A stretch of DNA of 64,000 nucleotides from an uncultured Pelagibacteraceae bacterium. GTDB lineage: Bacteria; Pseudomonadota; Alphaproteobacteria; Pelagibacterales; Pelagibacteraceae. The position numbers were made by a program, and so were the translations under genes. Below, piece by piece: positions 11,412 through 24,283 of the stretch; position 1 is the first letter of the stretch, and each line of letters starts with the position of its first letter. The stretch is from positions 245,108 to 309,107 of the forward strand of contig CACBGZ010000001.1 in assembly GCA_902538915.1 (NCBI GenBank). Reading direction: 5' to 3'. Under the pieces are notes generated by a model that saw only the letters and a list, made by a program, of their open reading frames with translations, had not been told where the DNA came from and did no database searches.

Positions 11412-12394
11412 TATTAAAAACGTATAATTTAAATGAAAATATAGATGCTAAGATCTTCTTATTTCACGGTGTAAACGATGGTCAAAAAGAGGAGCTTGTA
11501 GAGAATAAATTTAAACCAATGTTTGGAGACAATGTATTTAAATATTATGAGAAAGAAATATTTAATGATGTCGAAAATTTTTATAATCAAATCTTATCTA
11601 GATCTTTTTTTGAGAAAAATAAACTTATAATAATTAAAGATGCTAGTGAAAAAATTAAAGATCACATCGAAATTTTAAAAGAAAAAATATTTGATGACAT
11701 TAAAATTATTCTTATTTCCAATATTTTAGATAAAAAATCTAAATTAAGAAATCTATTTGAGAAAGATGATGATTTAGTTTCAATCGCATTTTATAACGAT
11801 AACAATCAAACTCTGTCCTCTATTTCAAAATCTTTTTTTTTAAAAAAAAAAATATCGATTTCACAAGAATCAATTAATCTATTAGTTAATAGAGCTTGTG
11901 GTGAAAGAAAAAGTCTTAATAATGAATTACAAAAGATTGAAAGTTTTTTATTAAATAAAAACAAAATATCTATTGAAGATATCCATGCTCTTACTAATTT
12001 ATCAGAAAATTATAGTATTAATGAACTTGTAGATAACTGTTTAGCAAAAAACAGGGCTAAAACCATTTACATTTTAAATGAAAATAATTTTTCTTTTGAG
12101 GATGCAATAATTATTATTAGAACATTTTTAATCAAGACCAAAAGATTGATAAAACTGAACCAAAGTTTACAAATAAACAAAAGTATCGATAAAACGATTG
12201 TTAATTTTAAACCACCAATATTTTGGAAAGATAAAGAATTAGTGAAAAATCAAATTAAAAATTGGACATTAGATAAAACCCATAAACTAATTGAAGAAAT
12301 AGATAAAGTTGAATTGAATATTAAGAAAAATTCAATTAATTCTCTTAATATTTTATTTGACTTTATTTTAAATACTTCAAAATCTAATAATTAG
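11408..12394 (+). CDS. holA: DNA polymerase III subunit delta
   Basis: HolA opens the beta sliding clamp as part of the clamp-loader complex. The 328-residue protein shows family features: an N-terminal FLFHGVNDGQKEEL segment, a middle PFDDIKIILISN-like strand, and the C-terminal collar region with VNRACGERKSLNNELQKIE. As usual for delta, there is no functional P-loop. The leuS-lptE-holA order supports the call. Its 3' end overlaps the convergent parB by 11 bp. Confidence 0.9.
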   Translation: MILKTYNLNENIDAKIFLFHGVNDGQKEELVENKFKPMFGDNVFKYYEKEIFNDVENFYNQILSRSFFEKNKLIIIKDASEKIKDHIEILKEKIFDDIKIILISNILDKKSKLRNLFEKDDDLVSIAFYNDNNQTLSSISKSFFLKKKISISQESINLLVNRACGERKSLNNELQKIESFLLNKNKISIEDIHALTNLSENYSINELVDNCLAKNRAKTIYILNENNFSFEDAIIIIRTFLIKTKRLIKLNQSLQINKSIDKTIVNFKPPIFWKDKELVKNQIKNWTLDKTHKLIEEIDKVELNIKKNSINSLNILFDFILNTSKSNN

Positions 12395-13226
12395 ATTTTA
12401 TGACCTCTATAATTTTATTAAGCTGATCATTATCATGATAAGCAAAAGTAATTGTACCTTTATTTTTATTGTTATTTTTAATAAAAACGTAAAGTCCAGT
12501 TTTATCCGTTATTGATTGTTCTAAATCTTTAATATTTGGATCCTTTGATTTATTGGTTAGACCAGGTTTCTTTTTGAAAATTTTTACAAAATTCTCTGCT
12601 TGACGAACTGAAAGTTTTTTTTCGATAATCTTGTTGGCTATAAACTCAGCATTGTTTAATCCAACCAATACTTTTGCGTGCCCTGCAGAGATTTTTTTGT
12701 TTTTAACAAAATTTAATACCTCCTCAGGCAAACTTAGTAATCTTAGTGAATTGGTTATATAGCTCCTGCTTTTTCCAATAAACTTAGAGACTTTTTCCTG
12801 GTCATATGAAAATTCATCGATCAACCTTTTATAACCTAGTGCTTCTTCTAACGGATTAAGATCATGTCGCTGAACATTTTCTACGATTGCAAACTCTAAA
12901 GATTTTAGGTCATCAACGTCTGTTATTATTACAGGAATATCATGAAGTCCAGCTTTTCTCGCTGCTAACCACCTTCTCTCACCTGCTATAATCTCATATT
13001 TAGTTTTTTCTAACTTTGACTTTCTAACTATAATTGGTTGGATTACGCCTCGTTCCTTAATAGAATTTGACAATTCATCTAAGCTATCTTGCTCAAAATT
13101 TTTTCTTGGTTGATATCTGTTAGGGATTATTTCACTCAAAGATAATTTGCTACTACTAGTTTCAACTTTATTTTCTCCGATTAAAGAAGATAGCCCTCTA
13201 CCTAATCCTTTTTTTATTTTATTCAT
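12384..13226 (-). CDS. parB: Chromosome-partitioning protein ParB
   Basis: ParB binds parS, spreads as a CTP-dependent clamp and is moved by ParA. The 280-residue protein starts with the usual GLGRGLSSLIG stretch. It has the CTP-binding/ParB box with IAGERRWLAARKAGL (GERR at 82-85), then the helix-turn-helix around KVSKFIGKSRSYITNSLRLL, and a C-terminal dimerisation part. parA lies immediately upstream with a TAATG overlap. A parS site lies 1.4 kb away in rsmG. Confidence 0.97.
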   Translation of the reverse strand: MNKIKKGLGRGLSSLIGENKVETSSSKLSLSEIIPNRYQPRKNFEQDSLDELSNSIKERGVIQPIIVRKSKLEKTKYEIIAGERRWLAARKAGLHDIPVIITDVDDLKSLEFAIVENVQRHDLNPLEEALGYKRLIDEFSYDQEKVSKFIGKSRSYITNSLRLLSLPEEVLNFVKNKKISAGHAKVLVGLNNAEFIANKIIEKKLSVRQAENFVKIFKKKPGLTNKSKDPNIKDLEQSITDKTGLYVFIKNNNKNKGTITFAYHDNDQLNKIIEVIKSNY

Positions 13227-14020
13227 TATGCTGCGCTCCCAATATTGTTTTCTTGATTAATAAATTCATCTGTGAAATTATAATATGATCTACTGCCTGG
13301 ACAATTTTTGTCATAGATTAATACTGGTACACCATGTGAAGGTGCTTCTGATAATCTTACATTTCTTGGTATTACGGTTTGATAAACTTTATCTTTAAAA
13401 TAATTTCTAGCTTCCTCTTCAACTTGTGAGGATAATTTGTTTCTTCTGTCATACATAGTCAGCAGAATACCTTGAATTTCTAATTTAGGATTCAAATTTA
13501 CTTTAATACGTTCAATCGTTTTGATGAGTTGGGTAAGTCCCTCCAGGGCAAAAAATTCAGTTTGTAACGGAACTAGCAATGAGTTAGAAGATACTAAAGC
13601 CATAACTGTCAACAAACTTAAAGATGGTGGGCAATCTATTAGGACATAATCGTATGATGCTCCAGAATCATTTAAATATGCGGTTAATTTAGTCTTCAAA
13701 ATAAATGCTCTGTCATTGTCACCAGCTGTTTCAACTTCTAAACCTGACAAATCAACATTTGATGTAATTAAATCTAAATTTTCAAATTTGGTCTTTTTAA
13801 TTACTTCTGAAATTGAGACTGTCCCATTGAGAATACCATAAATAGTTTGGTCTGACTGCTCAACATTAGATAATCCTAGACCTGTTGTAGCATTTCCTTG
13901 AGGATCAAGATCAATTACTAAAATTTTTTTATTTTGTTGCGATAAAGCAGAGGCCAAATTAATTACTGTTGTCGTTTTACCTACTCCACCTTTTTGATTT
14001 ATAATCGAAATTATTTTCAC
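13226..14020 (-). CDS. parA: Chromosome-partitioning ATPase ParA
   Basis: ParA forms ATP-dependent gradients on the nucleoid that move ParB-parS complexes. The deviant Walker A is KGGVGKTT (residues 10-17, with K10 and K15), followed by VIDLDPQGNATTG and VLIDCPPSL. The length of 264 residues is normal. It sits between rsmG and parB with 4-bp and 1-bp overlaps, the conserved origin-proximal cluster. Confidence 0.98.
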   Translation of the reverse strand: MKIISIINQKGGVGKTTTVINLASALSQQNKKILVIDLDPQGNATTGLGLSNVEQSDQTIYGILNGTVSISEVIKKTKFENLDLITSNVDLSGLEVETAGDNDRAFILKTKLTAYLNDSGASYDYVLIDCPPSLSLLTVMALVSSNSLLVPLQTEFFALEGLTQLIKTIERIKVNLNPKLEIQGILLTMYDRRNKLSSQVEEEARNYFKDKVYQTVIPRNVRLSEAPSHGVPVLIYDKNCPGSRSYYNFTDEFINQENNIGSAA

Positions 14021-14664
14021 GATAATTTTTTTTTGATTTTTTTTATGTTTAATATAAATGAGCTCTCATTTGTTAAACTTTTTTTTTCCTCATAATCTAA
14101 GTCCCAGTGCTGTAGTGTTTCTTTTAAAACTTTTTTTCCATTTTTGCCCATAAAAAAAATTATATTTTTAAATCTCTTAAAATTATCATTTACCAAATTT
14201 AAAACTAATGGCATTGGTTTAAATGCTCTCGACATTATTGTTCCTGTTTCCAAATTTTTTAATTTAAAAATATCTTTTTGAATAACTTCTGTGTTCAAGT
14301 TTAATTCTTTAGAAACATGTTTTAGAAAAACACATTTATGATAACTTTTTTCAAACAAGCTAACTTTCATATCAATTTTTAAATTTTTCATCACTATTGC
14401 CACCACAATACCTGGCAACCCTGCTCCAGAACCTAAATCATAGGTTGTATTTGCATTTATATCAACAAAATCAATGATTTGTGCTGAATCTATTATATGA
14501 CGTTGTCTAATATCGTCTTTTTTAGAGTTTTTTTTGCTTATTATGTTAATTTCTTCATTTTTTTGTTGAATCAAAGAAATGAAGTTTTCTAACTCATTAC
14601 AAGTTTCACGTGAAACATTAAAATCTGAAATTTTCGAATATGAATTTAAATTTATTTGATCCAT
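14017..14664 (-). CDS. rsmG: 16S rRNA (guanine-527-N7) methyltransferase RsmG
   Basis: RsmG (GidB) methylates G527 of 16S rRNA with S-adenosylmethionine. The SAM-binding motif is YDLGSGAGLPGIV (residues 75-87), after RHIIDS (55-60). The N-terminus contains NVSRET (16-21), whose codons form the parS palindrome. The length of 215 residues is usual. It is coupled to mnmG by a one-base overlap and to parA by ATGA. Confidence 0.96.
   Translation of the reverse strand: MDQINLNSYSKISDFNVSRETCNELENFISLIQQKNEEINIISKKNSKKDDIRQRHIIDSAQIIDFVDINANTTYDLGSGAGLPGIVVAIVMKNLKIDMKVSLFEKSYHKCVFLKHVSKELNLNTEVIQKDIFKLKNLETGTIMSRAFKPMPLVLNLVNDNFKRFKNIIFFMGKNGKKVLKETLQHWDLDYEEKKSLTNESSFILNIKKIKKKLS
14602..14617. 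other. parS centromere site inside rsmG
   Basis: The core GTTTCACGTGAAAC (14603-14616) is a perfect 14-bp palindrome. The 16-mer read on the minus strand, TGTTTCACGTGAAACT, differs from the widely conserved ParB site TGTTTCACGTGAAACA only at the last base. It overlaps the Val-Ser-Arg-Glu-Thr codons of rsmG, lies next to parAB and is about 8 kb from the proposed origin. I saw no second copy in the window. Confidence 0.93.
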
Positions 14665-20599: not shown

Positions 20600-21598
20600 C
20601 TAAATATTTTTTTTAATTAAAGATTTTAATAAAATTATATGATCATCATTATCATTTAAGCACGGTACCATATCAAAGTTTTTTCCTCCAGAATCTAAAA
20701 AACTCTCCTTTCCTTGAATTTGGATTTCCTCTAAAGTTTCAACACAATCTGATGAAAATCCTGGGCATATAGCTAAAATATTTTTTTTTCCCTCTTGAGG
20801 TAAACTTTCTAGAGTTTTGTCTGTATAGGGCTGAAGCCATTTTTCAGGACCAAATCTTGATTGGAACGTTGTTTTGATTTCAATCGATGTAAACTTTTCT
20901 GATATCAGTCTAGTAGTTTTGTGGCAATAGCAATGATAGGGGTCACCTTTGTCGAAATATTTTTGAGGTATTCCATGATAAGAAGCTAATATTAAATCTG
21001 GCTTCCAATTAATTTCTTTAATTTTCTTATTTAATGAATTCACAAGTGCTTCTATATATAAAGGATCAGACTCATAATGAGGCACTATTTTAAGTGATGG
21101 TTGCCATCTCATTTTCATAAGGGTTCTATAGACTTCATCACAAACCGTTGCAGTTGTTGCGGCCGCATATTGAGGATAAAGAGGAAGTATTATTAAATTT
21201 TCACAGCCTTTTTCATGAAGACCTGCAATTTTACTCTTTATGCTAGGATTTCCATATCTCATAGCATAATCAATTATCAAATTTTTTTCTGACATTGTGC
21301 TTGAAAGTTTCTCTGCCTGTCTTTGTGTATAATACAAAAGTGGGGAAATATTTTTATCCTTCATCCAAATTTCTTTATAGGCTTTTGCCGTTTTAGATGG
21401 CCTAAAAGTTAATATGAAAACATTTAAAATGATCTGCCAAATTATTGGATTAACTTCAATTACTCTTCTATCCGATAAAAATTCTTTTAAATATTTTCTT
21501 ATATCAAACCAACTTGTTGAATTAGGTGTTCCTAAATTTACAATTAAAATTCCAGTTTTTCCAAATTTTACAGGTGGGTGTTCTGCTTTATTTTCCAT
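20600..21598 (-). CDS. hemH: Ferrochelatase
   Basis: HemH inserts ferrous iron into protoporphyrin IX, the last step of protohaem synthesis. The 332-residue protein opens with KTGILIVNLGTPNS and contains DYAMRYGNPSI, ILPLYPQYAAATTATV, the catalytic region LASYHGIPQKYFDKGDPY and, near the end, CPGFSSDCVETLEEI. The HemH start overlaps the hemE stop by one base (TAATG). Confidence 0.97.
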   Translation of the reverse strand: MENKAEHPPVKFGKTGILIVNLGTPNSTSWFDIRKYLKEFLSDRRVIEVNPIIWQIILNVFILTFRPSKTAKAYKEIWMKDKNISPLLYYTQRQAEKLSSTMSEKNLIIDYAMRYGNPSIKSKIAGLHEKGCENLIILPLYPQYAAATTATVCDEVYRTLMKMRWQPSLKIVPHYESDPLYIEALVNSLNKKIKEINWKPDLILASYHGIPQKYFDKGDPYHCYCHKTTRLISEKFTSIEIKTTFQSRFGPEKWLQPYTDKTLESLPQEGKKNILAICPGFSSDCVETLEEIQIQGKESFLDSGGKNFDMVPCLNDNDDHIILLKSLIKKNI

Positions 21599-22599
21599 TA
21601 ATAATCTTTTACGGTTTTAACTAAGTAATCCATCATACTAGGATCGGTTTCTGGTAAAACACCATGTCCTAAATTAAATACATATGGATGATCTTTGAAT
21701 ATATCTAAATATTTTATTGCCTCTTTTTTTAGTTTTTCTTTATCAGTAAGTAAAATCTTTGGATCCATTCCGCCTTGTACAGGAATTTTTATTTCCTTAT
21801 TAACTTTAACTGGATCAACTTCATAATCAATGCAAATGGCGTCTGGTTTAATAATTTCACAAAAATCTTTATAATTCTTAATACCTCTTGGAAAACAAAT
21901 AACAGGTGTGTTTAAAGATTTAATATAATTAACCAAACTTAATGTTGGCTCATAAATATAGTAAGGTAAATCTTTTTCTTTTAGCAACCCAGCCCAGCTG
22001 TCAAAAATCTGTATTAATTGTGCGCCATTTTTGATCTGATTATTAACGTGTATTTTTAAAAACTTATCTAAAATTTTAAGAACTTTGCTTATTAATAATT
22101 TATTATCGAAAAAATTTTTATTCAGATCTAGTTTTGGTGATTTTTTGTTGATCATGTAAACCAACAAAGTCCATGGTGCCCCGATAAAGCCGATAGTAGT
22201 TTTATTTTTAGTAAACTGAGAACTACTAACTAACCTAATTAATTCATAAATAGGAGAAAGTTTTTTTACAAAATTAACTTCTTCCACAGTCGAAATTTTT
22301 TCTAAATTAAGCTCGTCAAGTAATGGACCTATATTTTTTTTAAACACAACATTTTGATTTAAACCATATGGTAACATGAGAATATCAGAAAAAATTATTG
22401 CAGCATCTAATTCAAATCTTTTTAAAGGTTGTAAAGTAATTTCAGTCGACAATTTTTGATTAAGACATAATTTAATAAAATCAGGATTTTGTTTTCTTAT
22501 TTCTCTAAATTCTGGCAAATATCTTCCAGCTTGTCTCATTATCCAAATAGGATTAATATCACTTTTTTTGTTTATTATTACTTCTTCAATTGGAGACAT
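21598..22599 (-). CDS. hemE: Uroporphyrinogen decarboxylase
   Basis: HemE converts uroporphyrinogen III to coproporphyrinogen III. The 333-residue protein begins with the signature PIWIMRQAGRYLPEFR and has IIFSDILMLPYGL, GFIGAPWTLLVYM, IQIFDSWAG, FPRG, GGMDP and NLGHGVLPETDP. It is the first gene of a leftward haem operon. In Caulobacter and Rickettsia the replication origin lies between hemE and the ppsR homologue, which is exactly the arrangement here. Confidence 0.97.
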   Translation of the reverse strand: MSPIEEVIINKKSDINPIWIMRQAGRYLPEFREIRKQNPDFIKLCLNQKLSTEITLQPLKRFELDAAIIFSDILMLPYGLNQNVVFKKNIGPLLDELNLEKISTVEEVNFVKKLSPIYELIRLVSSSQFTKNKTTIGFIGAPWTLLVYMINKKSPKLDLNKNFFDNKLLISKVLKILDKFLKIHVNNQIKNGAQLIQIFDSWAGLLKEKDLPYYIYEPTLSLVNYIKSLNTPVICFPRGIKNYKDFCEIIKPDAICIDYEVDPVKVNKEIKIPVQGGMDPKILLTDKEKLKKEAIKYLDIFKDHPYVFNLGHGVLPETDPSMMDYLVKTVKDY

Positions 22600-22640
22600 A
22601 ATAATAATTAAATATAATTGATTGTAATATTAGTGTATTC

Positions 22641-22649
22641 TGTGAATAA
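22641..22649 (-). promoter_or_regulatory. DnaA box (TTATTCACA)
   Basis: A perfect match to TTATNCACA on the minus strand, 42 bp from the hemE start, inside the proposed origin. It could also let DnaA act on hemE transcription. Confidence 0.75.
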
Positions 22650-22684
22650 TGGTGATTAAATTTATTGAACATCTTTTAAACAGT

Positions 22685-22693
22685 TTATTAACA
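22685..22693 (+). promoter_or_regulatory. Weak DnaA box (TTATTAACA)
   Basis: One mismatch from TTATNCACA. The same nonamer recurs inverted at 22789-22797. In such AT-rich DNA a single-mismatch site is weak evidence alone. Confidence 0.35.
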
Positions 22694-22788
22694 TTTAGAG
22701 TTTAAATTTTAATAAATATATACGTAAAATTGAAGCTTATTAACTAAATACATTTAATGATTACTAATGATTTTAACATGTTTAATAT

Positions 22789-22797
22789 TGTTAATAA
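22789..22797 (-). promoter_or_regulatory. Weak DnaA box (TTATTAACA, inverted copy)
   Basis: The same nonamer as at 22685-22693, on the opposite strand, giving the origin region a roughly symmetrical set of sites. Confidence 0.35.
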
Positions 22798-22864
22798 AAT
22801 CACTGTTTTACAACATAAATTTAAAAATATGAAAAATATCCAATATGATAAAGATAATACAAAT

Positions 22865-22873
22865 TTATACACA
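22865..22873 (+). promoter_or_regulatory. DnaA box (TTATACACA)
   Basis: A perfect match to TTATNCACA, ending 8 bp before the ppsR ATG. It must overlap the promoter or leader of ppsR. Confidence 0.75.
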
Positions 22874-22881
22874 TATTATAC

Positions 22882-23706
22882 ATGAGTAATTTATATCAAA
22901 TTTATCTTATTTCAGATTCTACTGGCGAGACTTTAGATAGAATTTTTACAGCTATAAAAGTTCAATTTAAGAATATAAAATATAAAATTCACACTTATTC
23001 TTTTACAAGAACAGGAAACCAAATCTTAAAGATTTTGTCTGATGCTGAAAAAAAAACAAATTCAATAATATTATATTCAATAGTAGATAGCAATCTTGCT
23101 AAATATCTTGCAAAAACAAGCAGAGAAAAAGAGATTCCATGTTTTGGTGTGTTAGGTGACTTAATATTAAGTTTTTCTAAACTACTCAACCAGAAGGCAT
23201 CCCATCAACCCAGCGGACAATATGCTCTTAATGATGAATATTATAAAAGGATTGAAGCAATTCAATTTACTATGAACCATGATGATGGTAATTCCATTAA
23301 AGAAATAAAAAAGTCCGATATAATTCTTTTAGGAGTGAGCAGAACAAGCAAAACACCAACCTCAATTTATTTGGCTAACAAAGGATATAAAACATCGAAC
23401 ATTCCACTTATTAATGAAAACTCCATTCCACAAATTTTGAAGGAAAACCCCAAAATTTCTTGTGTGGTCGGTCTTAATACAGAACCTGAAAGATTGGCTG
23501 ACATAAGAAAAAATAGAATGAACTCTTTAAAAGAAACAGAGAACAAATCATATACAGATCTAAGTAATATTAGAAAAGAAGTTGAGAATGCAAAAAACGC
23601 TTTTAAAAAATATAAATGGCCTACAATAGATGTTACAAGAAAATCAGTTGAAGAAACTGCAGCGTCAATAATAAAAATATACGAAATTTATAAACAAAAT
23701 GTTTAA
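22882..23706 (+). CDS. ppsR: Pyruvate-phosphate dikinase / PEP synthase regulatory protein (DUF299)
   Basis: Members are bifunctional kinase/phosphorylases that switch pyruvate,phosphate dikinase or PEP synthase on and off by threonine phosphorylation. The 274-residue protein opens with LYQIYLISDSTGETLD, has HQPSGQYALNDEYYKRIEA and the nucleotide loop GVSRTSKTPTS (151-161). The end has VTRKSVEETAASI. The target dikinase is not in the window. This is the homologue of Rickettsia RP001, which flanks the origin. It overlaps maf by 8 bp. Confidence 0.93.
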   Translation: MSNLYQIYLISDSTGETLDRIFTAIKVQFKNIKYKIHTYSFTRTGNQILKILSDAEKKTNSIILYSIVDSNLAKYLAKTSREKEIPCFGVLGDLILSFSKLLNQKASHQPSGQYALNDEYYKRIEAIQFTMNHDDGNSIKEIKKSDIILLGVSRTSKTPTSIYLANKGYKTSNIPLINENSIPQILKENPKISCVVGLNTEPERLADIRKNRMNSLKETENKSYTDLSNIRKEVENAKNAFKKYKWPTIDVTRKSVEETAASIIKIYEIYKQNV

Positions 23707-24283
23707 ATTAATACTTGCATCCAAAAGCAAAGTAAGGAAAGAAATATTAAATAAACACAATATCAAAGCTAAAGTTGAACCTTCAACTGTTGATGAGGAA
23801 CCCATCAAACAGAGTTTGTTAAAAGAAAGAGTTTCACCTGAAATAATCTCAAAAAATCTTGCTGAAATAAAAGCTAGCCGAGTTAGTCAAAAGAATTTTG
23901 ATATATTAGTTTTAGGTGCTGATAGTGTTATAGACTTAAATGGAGAATTAATATCTAAACCTGATAATCGTGAAGAAGCCCTATCAATTTTAAAAAAACT
24001 TAATGGAAAAGTGCACCAATTAATAAGCTCTGTTTGCATATCAAAAAATGGTTCGATGATCTGGAACTATACCGATATAGCCAAACTTACAATGAGGAAT
24101 TTTTCAAACAAAGAGTTAGAAGAATATTTAAAGAAGATTTCAGATGAAGCACTTTATTCATATAATGTTTATCAAATTGAGGGGGTGGGTAGATCTTTAT
24201 TTTCGAAAATACAAGGAGATGAGAATACAATTATGGGCCTTCCTATTAACAAAATTAAGGAATATTTAAAAAATTATGAATAA
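23699..24283 (+). CDS. maf: Maf-family nucleoside triphosphate pyrophosphatase
   Basis: Maf proteins hydrolyse non-canonical or regular nucleoside triphosphates to monophosphates and are linked to septum control. The 194-residue protein has LASKSKVRKEIL at the start, the central LGADSVIDLNGELISKP and the later DEALYSYNVYQIEGVG region. It resembles the YhdE/YceF types, and the preferred nucleotide is not clear. It overlaps ppsR and aroE by 8 bp each, giving a compact operon. Confidence 0.9.
   Translation: MFKLILASKSKVRKEILNKHNIKAKVEPSTVDEEPIKQSLLKERVSPEIISKNLAEIKASRVSQKNFDILVLGADSVIDLNGELISKPDNREEALSILKKLNGKVHQLISSVCISKNGSMIWNYTDIAKLTMRNFSNKELEEYLKKISDEALYSYNVYQIEGVGRSLFSKIQGDENTIMGLPINKIKEYLKNYE

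Follow-up and report, generated by a model that had tools for sequence, protein, structure and literature searches.

The replication origins of Caulobacter crescentus (Cori) and Rickettsia prowazekii are both flanked by hemE and a gene of COG1806, also termed DUF299 (PMC1914354). The available part of the same source also lists hemE/COG1806 origins without CtrA sites, so that CtrA does not define this kind of origin, and it places the origin of Wolbachia with hemE after the hemE/COG1806 pair split (PMC1914354). In Bacillus subtilis and other bacteria, the element termed BUS consists of a DnaA box, a spacer and trios located 5′ of the box on their strand. It is recognized by a box carrying no more than two mismatches and, no farther than 16 nt away, three or more NAN triplets (PMC8287927). 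The oriC of HTCC1062 has been described, in the part of the source available, as “manually identified” (PMC4033161). No description of a SAR11 origin sequence or trio run was found in the literature covered; the DoriC/Ori-Finder tables may list the site.

The window analyzed here, a stretch of 64,000 nucleotides (C1:245108-309107 of a draft genome of 947,620 bases in 24 contigs), contains the same gene pair. The COG1806/DUF299 member, which we take to be PpsR, is 78–95% identical to its nearest named matches, which are from Pelagibacteraceae, mostly single-cell genomes. It is very probable from the sequence evidence that the gap between hemE and ppsR is the chromosomal replication origin of this Pelagibacteraceae (SAR11) bacterium, and that it is of the hemE-ppsR kind found in Caulobacter and Rickettsia. 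An earlier sequence-only reading had named the gap a probable origin and had pointed to its boundary as the origin site in those two genera. The flanks are indeed the ones given in the available part of PMC1914354, and the proposal is strengthened by the gap length, the boxes and their phasing, a trio run, the strand switch in relatives and the retention of boxes and trio-like runs where hemE has left. The putative origin is compact, of an already known type, and has no CtrA site in the gap. The features of the locus are as follows.

12384–13226, minus strand: parB-like gene (TIGR00180, 200.7 bits, above the cut-off of 58.45)
13226–14020, minus strand: parA-like gene (below-cut-off TIGR03453 match only)
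14602–14617, plus strand: parS-like palindrome AGTTTCACGTGAAACA, one mismatch to the parS consensus
21598–22599, minus strand: hemE, left flank (TIGR01464, 306 bits against a cut-off of 302.95)
22600–22881, no strand: whole hemE-ppsR gap, proposed oriC (282 bp, GC 0.160)
22600–22640, no strand: hemE end of the gap, proposed as the duplex unwinding element, AT-rich and containing the trio run beside box 1 (melting predicted)
22625–22633, plus strand: DnaA-trio-like run TAA TAT TAG (3′ to 5′ from the box, GAT TAT AAT), made up of three TA-N triplets, with 7 nt between it and box 1
22634–22636, plus strand: degenerate fourth triplet TGT, continuing the trio run
22641–22649, minus strand: DnaA box 1, TTATTCACA, facing hemE and the trio run; perfect TTATNCACA box, with G22642 and T22643 in 64/64 gaps
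22651–22659, minus strand: candidate DnaA box, weak and in tandem with box 1 at a distance of 10 bp (putative assignment; G22651 in 48/64, T22656 in 61/64)
22663–22693, plus strand: three DnaA-like boxes in 11-bp steps (phased array), with conserved columns C22670, T22675, T22677 and A22680
22663–22671, plus strand: DnaA-like box TATTGAACA of the array, two mismatches
22674–22682, plus strand: DnaA-like box TTTTAAACA of the array
22685–22693, plus strand: DnaA-like box TTATTAACA of the array, one mismatch
22789–22797, minus strand: DnaA-like box TTATTAACA, one mismatch (G22790 in 48/64)
22798–22810, plus strand: weak IHF-like match AATCACTGTTTTA (family total 32, compared to 21.2 shuffled, sd 3.9)
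22865–22873, plus strand: DnaA box TTATACACA, facing ppsR, whose start codon follows after 8 bp; perfect TTATNCACA box, with A22871 in 64/64 and C22872 in 62/64
22882–23706, plus strand: ppsR (COG1806/DUF299), right flank (NF003742, 304.2 bits against a cut-off of 225)

Like Cori and the R. prowazekii oriC, the gap has the same two flanks, DnaA boxes, a high AT content and a strand switch (PMC1914354). Its GC content compares with 0.294 for the window, in which 319 of 63,718 spans of the same length, at about four other places, are equally AT-rich. The AT-richness of the gap is extreme, without being unique in the window. It had also been called the longest non-coding gap, which is plausible; the other long gaps contain ORFs of 67–87 amino acids that are possibly genes. 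ORFs of 20–42 amino acids that overlap the gap were dismissed as genes, and an Rfam search found no match to an RNA gene inside it.

Leftward beside the gap run hemE, hemH, hemJ and rho, with rho lying beyond the other three, and rightward run ppsR, maf, aroE, coaE and dnaQ. The assertion that gene direction mostly switches here holds for the genes adjoining the gap, but not farther left, where orientation is mixed: in the sampled contig of the draft genome, the far left has mostly reverse genes and 320–420 kb has forward genes, while C1:200–220 kb and 240–260 kb run opposite and are mostly forward. The parAB/parS genes and site that had been placed about 8 kb away were recovered as the parB-like and parA-like genes (12384–14020) and the parS-like palindrome. 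A weak parS-like match within maf (window positions 23830–23845), with three mismatches, is probably due to chance.

The arrangement is strongly conserved. Of 147 genomes searched for the family, 118 have ppsR, and the region upstream of it was taken for 70 of them. hemE adjoins ppsR in 64 of these 70 relatives, with a gap of 261–294 bp (median 278), and the six remaining loci all belong to genus g9. Among named Pelagibacteraceae, hemE is present in 80/80 loci (the best 80 of 460 confirmed) with gaps of 266–288 bp, a set that overlaps partly with the 70 relatives. Gap length is held within the range of 261–294 bp over 12 genera, with ppsR identity down to about 50%. The observation that the gap is notably small for an origin agrees with the 384 bp given for R. 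prowazekii in the table of PMC1914354, compared to 282 bp here, and small size is a fixed trait of the family.

The earlier reading had listed two perfect DnaA boxes (22641–22649, minus; 22865–22873, plus) and two one-mismatch copies, and all four were found again at the same positions. When the gap was shuffled 2000 times, at least two perfect TTATNCACA boxes arose in 2 cases. One-mismatch boxes show no enrichment in the window as a whole (73, compared to 102 in shuffles), so that only their clustering in the gap matters. The gap has four TTATN[CA]ACA sites, the most that any 282-bp span of the window contains. In 2,298,000 sampled bases from six genomes, a sample that excludes the hemE-ppsR gaps of relatives G026, G043, G040 and G017, four such sites were reached only by the window's gap and the hemE-ppsR gap of relative G003. 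A second cluster in G003, of three DnaA-like boxes, lies 15 kb from the origin (L047:15489, about 82 kb).

The most fixed columns in the alignment of 64 gaps (G22642, T22643, A22871 and C22872) form the core of the outermost box at either end, and each of these boxes faces outward to its own gene. Box 1 is TTATTAACA in 12 gaps and TTATTCACA in 9. Family gaps contain 7.77 DnaA-like boxes each, compared to 2.90 shuffled; TTATNNACA occurs in 169 copies in the 64 gaps, compared to 21.3 shuffled. Unlike in Cori and the R. prowazekii oriC, TTATNAACA (126) is commoner than TTATNCACA (28). DnaA is encoded in 12/12 genomes. An altered DnaA recognition motif was considered as the cause of the TTATNAACA boxes and was rejected, the RDHTT motif of domain IV being kept in the three examined. 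Elsewhere in the gap, TGAAGCTTA (22731–22739) and GTTTTACA (22805–22812) are well conserved in close relatives only. GANTC sites, the target of CcrM, are rarer than chance in family gaps (3, compared to 9.7) and commoner in gaps of the alphaproteobacterial class (75, compared to 58.6).

The boxes are also phased. Same-strand box pairs in family gaps are spaced 11 bp apart 40 times (compared to 0.7), 10 bp apart 20 times (0.5) and 22 bp apart 21 times (0.7), and 29 of the 64 gaps contain an 11-bp pair, where 1.1 would be expected. Such helical phasing may reflect the requirement of a DnaA oligomer assembled on one face of the DNA. The oriC of E. coli contains arrays of low-affinity DnaA sites; it resembles the gap in that the site starts repeat at about 11 bp beside the unwinding element, and it differs in its flanks and sequence.

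Next to box 1 lies the trio run, which together with the 11-bp phasing is anatomy beyond that in the sequence-only reading. In the window itself, the strict TA[GT] rule gives two triplets in a row and the TA-N rule gives three, while the BUS rule recovers TAATATTAG, 7 nt from TTATTCACA. The strand order agrees with that published, the trios being on the 5′ tail of the box duplex. Thus the locus resembles the BUS in its order of box, spacer and trios 5′ of the box on their strand. It differs in its triplets, which in SAR11 are TA[G/T], i.e. 3′-[G/T]AT-5′, compared to mostly 3′-GAT-5′ in the BUS as given in the available text (PMC8287927), and in the phased array of the SAR11 gap, which lies across the box from the trios; unwinding at this locus is predicted.

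The generic rule of three NAN triplets is weak in such AT-rich DNA, finding runs in 49/64 gaps compared to 38.9 shuffled. By the stricter rule, runs of at least three TA[GT] triplets occur within 16 nt of box 1 in 38/64 gaps, while shuffles average 6.2 with a maximum of 11, and such a run is present in 6 of 535 control windows placed at other points of these gaps and hence of the same phylogeny. In 25 of these 38 gaps, 4 nt separate run and box. These runs are found in 11 of 12 genera, with 0/8 in g2 and 1/6 in g4. The family as a whole, under the TA[GT] rule, has trio runs beyond chance, for which the window alone would be insufficient. An exact composite pattern of trio run and box matched 25 of 147 genomes, with one match each (reversed-pattern control, 8), and had no match in the window's own genome. 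By coordinates, 22 of the 25 matches are in the hemE-ppsR gap, one is inside ppsR (G008) and two are elsewhere (G030 and G051).

Unlike in Caulobacter, there is no TTAA-N7-TTAA sequence in the window's gap, and CtrA sites were ruled out as a part of its design. This agrees with the reported absence of a ctrA ortholog from Pelagibacter, as stated in the available part of PMC2877005. Family gaps contain 24 such sequences, compared to 16.0 shuffled (sd 3.6). In the wider alphaproteobacterial class, the ppsR family is present in 78 of 114 genomes, and hemE lies within 1.5 kb in 27 of the best 30 loci. Runs of at least four GT[AGT] triplets, a pattern picked after viewing the sequences, occur in 10/27 of these loci on the hemE-to-ppsR strand, and in 0/27 on the other strand, with 0.0 in shuffles; they often directly precede TGTG-like boxes. 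By this pattern, the trio-box end may be older than SAR11. Two other class-wide searches were set aside: T[AG][GT] triplets with a box of up to two mismatches were found in only 2/27 loci, and the NAN rule, with 9/27, gave 9 on the other strand too and did not discriminate.

In genus g9, the start of rho adjoins ppsR in 6/6 loci, as judged from translated frames. The rho-ppsR gap is 346–353 bp long and contains 5–10 DnaA-like boxes, and trio-like runs such as TTATTATTAG can be seen by eye; their distance from ppsR, measured automatically, is uneven (69–238 bp). Searches of 8 g9 genomes gave a hemE match in 7, and six of these matches score under the family cut-off. The match in G009 is at 718 kb, close to the point opposite ppsR, which is at 141 kb. 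This divergent hemE suggests a replacement instead of a simple move. In three g9 loci (L258, L259 and L260), the divergent below-cut-off hemE follows a frame recognized as the end of hemB. Since boxes and trio-like runs stay beside ppsR though hemE is gone, the module of this genus goes with the site and not with hemE.

A complementary case may be present in genome G066, in which an origin-like gap with a TAG TTG TAG TAG run and DnaA-like boxes (L256, contig 2, 2480–3000) lies between hemE and an apparent coaE/dnaQ, with no ppsR within the locus. The G066 hemE match, the seventh of those counted for g9, is above the cut-off and 31% identical to the window's hemE; the genome has 3% contamination, and the hemE contig may be a contaminant from another organism. 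Together, the g9, G066 and Wolbachia cases imply that the module can survive the loss of either neighbor.

Because the window's genome is in 24 contigs, the strand switch was measured in five complete relatives, using twenty 18–20 kb stretches per genome and assuming a terminus opposite the origin. For gene direction, the gap was beaten by 0 of 131 grid positions in G026, 0/133 in G017, 1/129 in G040, 6/138 in G043 and 6/120 in G003; the values for GC skew are the same except in G003 (12/120). The gap lies at or next to the optimum in G026, G017 and G040, and the optimum is only near the gap in G043 and G003. At four-fold sites, the leading arm of 5/5 relatives has a negative T/A skew (z −2.8 to −7.8) and is A-rich, not T-rich. 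Four-fold GC skew has its usual sign in 2/5 (z +2.8, +0.9, −2.3, −2.4 and −2.3), and this strand-neutral measure was rejected as an origin marker for its inconsistent sign. A search for a dif site that would mark the terminus, using the consensus with two mismatches, gave 1–8 matches per genome, about equal to the reversed control. Among strand-polar 7- and 8-mers in G003, there was no strong polar word at the gap, and the top scores were at other rotations. The data show the anatomy of the gap, how well it is conserved, how its boxes are phased and that it lies at the strand switch.

The same measurements bear on whether the origin might instead be at or near dnaA, from which SAR11 genome maps are usually begun; this is very unlikely. 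dnaA lies about 63 kb from the gap and, as obtained by subtraction, 61–73 kb from ppsR in 12/12 genomes. It is on the hemE side of the gap in 9 of the 12 genomes and on the ppsR side, at a nearly equal distance (71–73 kb), in G005, G009 and G022, a layout that an inversion centered on the origin would give. Genes between gap and dnaA are mixed in direction (forward fraction 0.51–0.60), and in G043 the gene direction optimum is at +0.03 to +0.06 of the genome, a range that includes dnaA. When arm models were built from the same genomes outside this interval, with the gap as center, the interval belonged to the hemE-side arm in four of five relatives, with log-likelihood ratios of +39.8 (G026), +10.8 (G040), +7.9 (G003) and +6.6 (G017), and to the other arm in G043 (−4.1); these models compare the gap with dnaA, not with all places. 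In G026, the arm likelihood flips sign at the gap. Moreover, the dnaA-bearing 20-kb stretches of G003 and G026 contain three TTATN[CA]ACA sites each, unclustered.

Two other explanations concern the gap itself. Divergent genes need promoters, and 11 promoter-like matches are found at 22500–23000, compared to 6.2 in shuffles, so that the gap might be a mere promoter region for hemE and ppsR with boxes that arise incidentally from AT-rich DNA or from transcription regulated by DnaA. This is highly improbable: shuffles that keep composition do not yield the boxes, a promoter region would account neither for the 11-bp phasing nor for the strand switch at the gap, and in g9 the box and trio module stays by ppsR with rho replacing hemE and a divergent hemE elsewhere. 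The abundance of DnaA-like boxes in family gaps would also suit a site close to the true origin that titrates DnaA or has a regulatory role; the fixed place of the trio run by box 1 and the coincidence with the strand switch would then be left unexplained, and there is almost no likelihood that this is the right account. The suggestion made earlier that initiation is coupled to ppsR expression fits the conserved box before ppsR, which is compatible with such coupling without showing it.

For the gap as origin, we infer the binding of DnaA, the place of melting, the loading of the helicase and the sequence of these steps as follows. DnaA would bind box 1 (22641–22649) and the phased boxes alongside (22663–22693), and a DnaA filament would extend from box 1 along the trio run (22625–22633) on its upper strand. 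The filament would stretch the trio run and open the AT-rich end beside hemE, where the helicase would be loaded. The boxes at 22789 and 22865 would bind additional DnaA, possibly bending or looping this short origin. The filament from box 1 to the trios, with melting beside hemE, is the best-supported proposal, suggested by pattern and by precedent.

More tentatively, and with somewhat less than even confidence, the locus may represent a stripped-down alphaproteobacterial origin without CtrA, in which about 280 bp accommodate a trio run, a single invariant box and an array of weak TTATNAACA boxes phased at 11 bp. Its trio-box end would be class-wide, appearing in high-GC relatives as GT-rich triplet runs, often with G or T for the middle A, and a different base in the middle of the trio may be compatible with function.

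These features have practical consequences for SAR11 biology. In situ growth can be estimated from the ratio of read depth at origin and terminus, and one tool puts dnaA contigs at the origin, according to the available part of PMC7852909; SAR11 genome alignments likewise start at dnaA, as described in the accessible text of PMC12421898. With the origin placed 61–73 kb from dnaA in 12/12 genomes, the hemE-ppsR gap would be the better anchor. In addition, the gap is small enough to test DnaA-only firing of an origin without a CtrA site.
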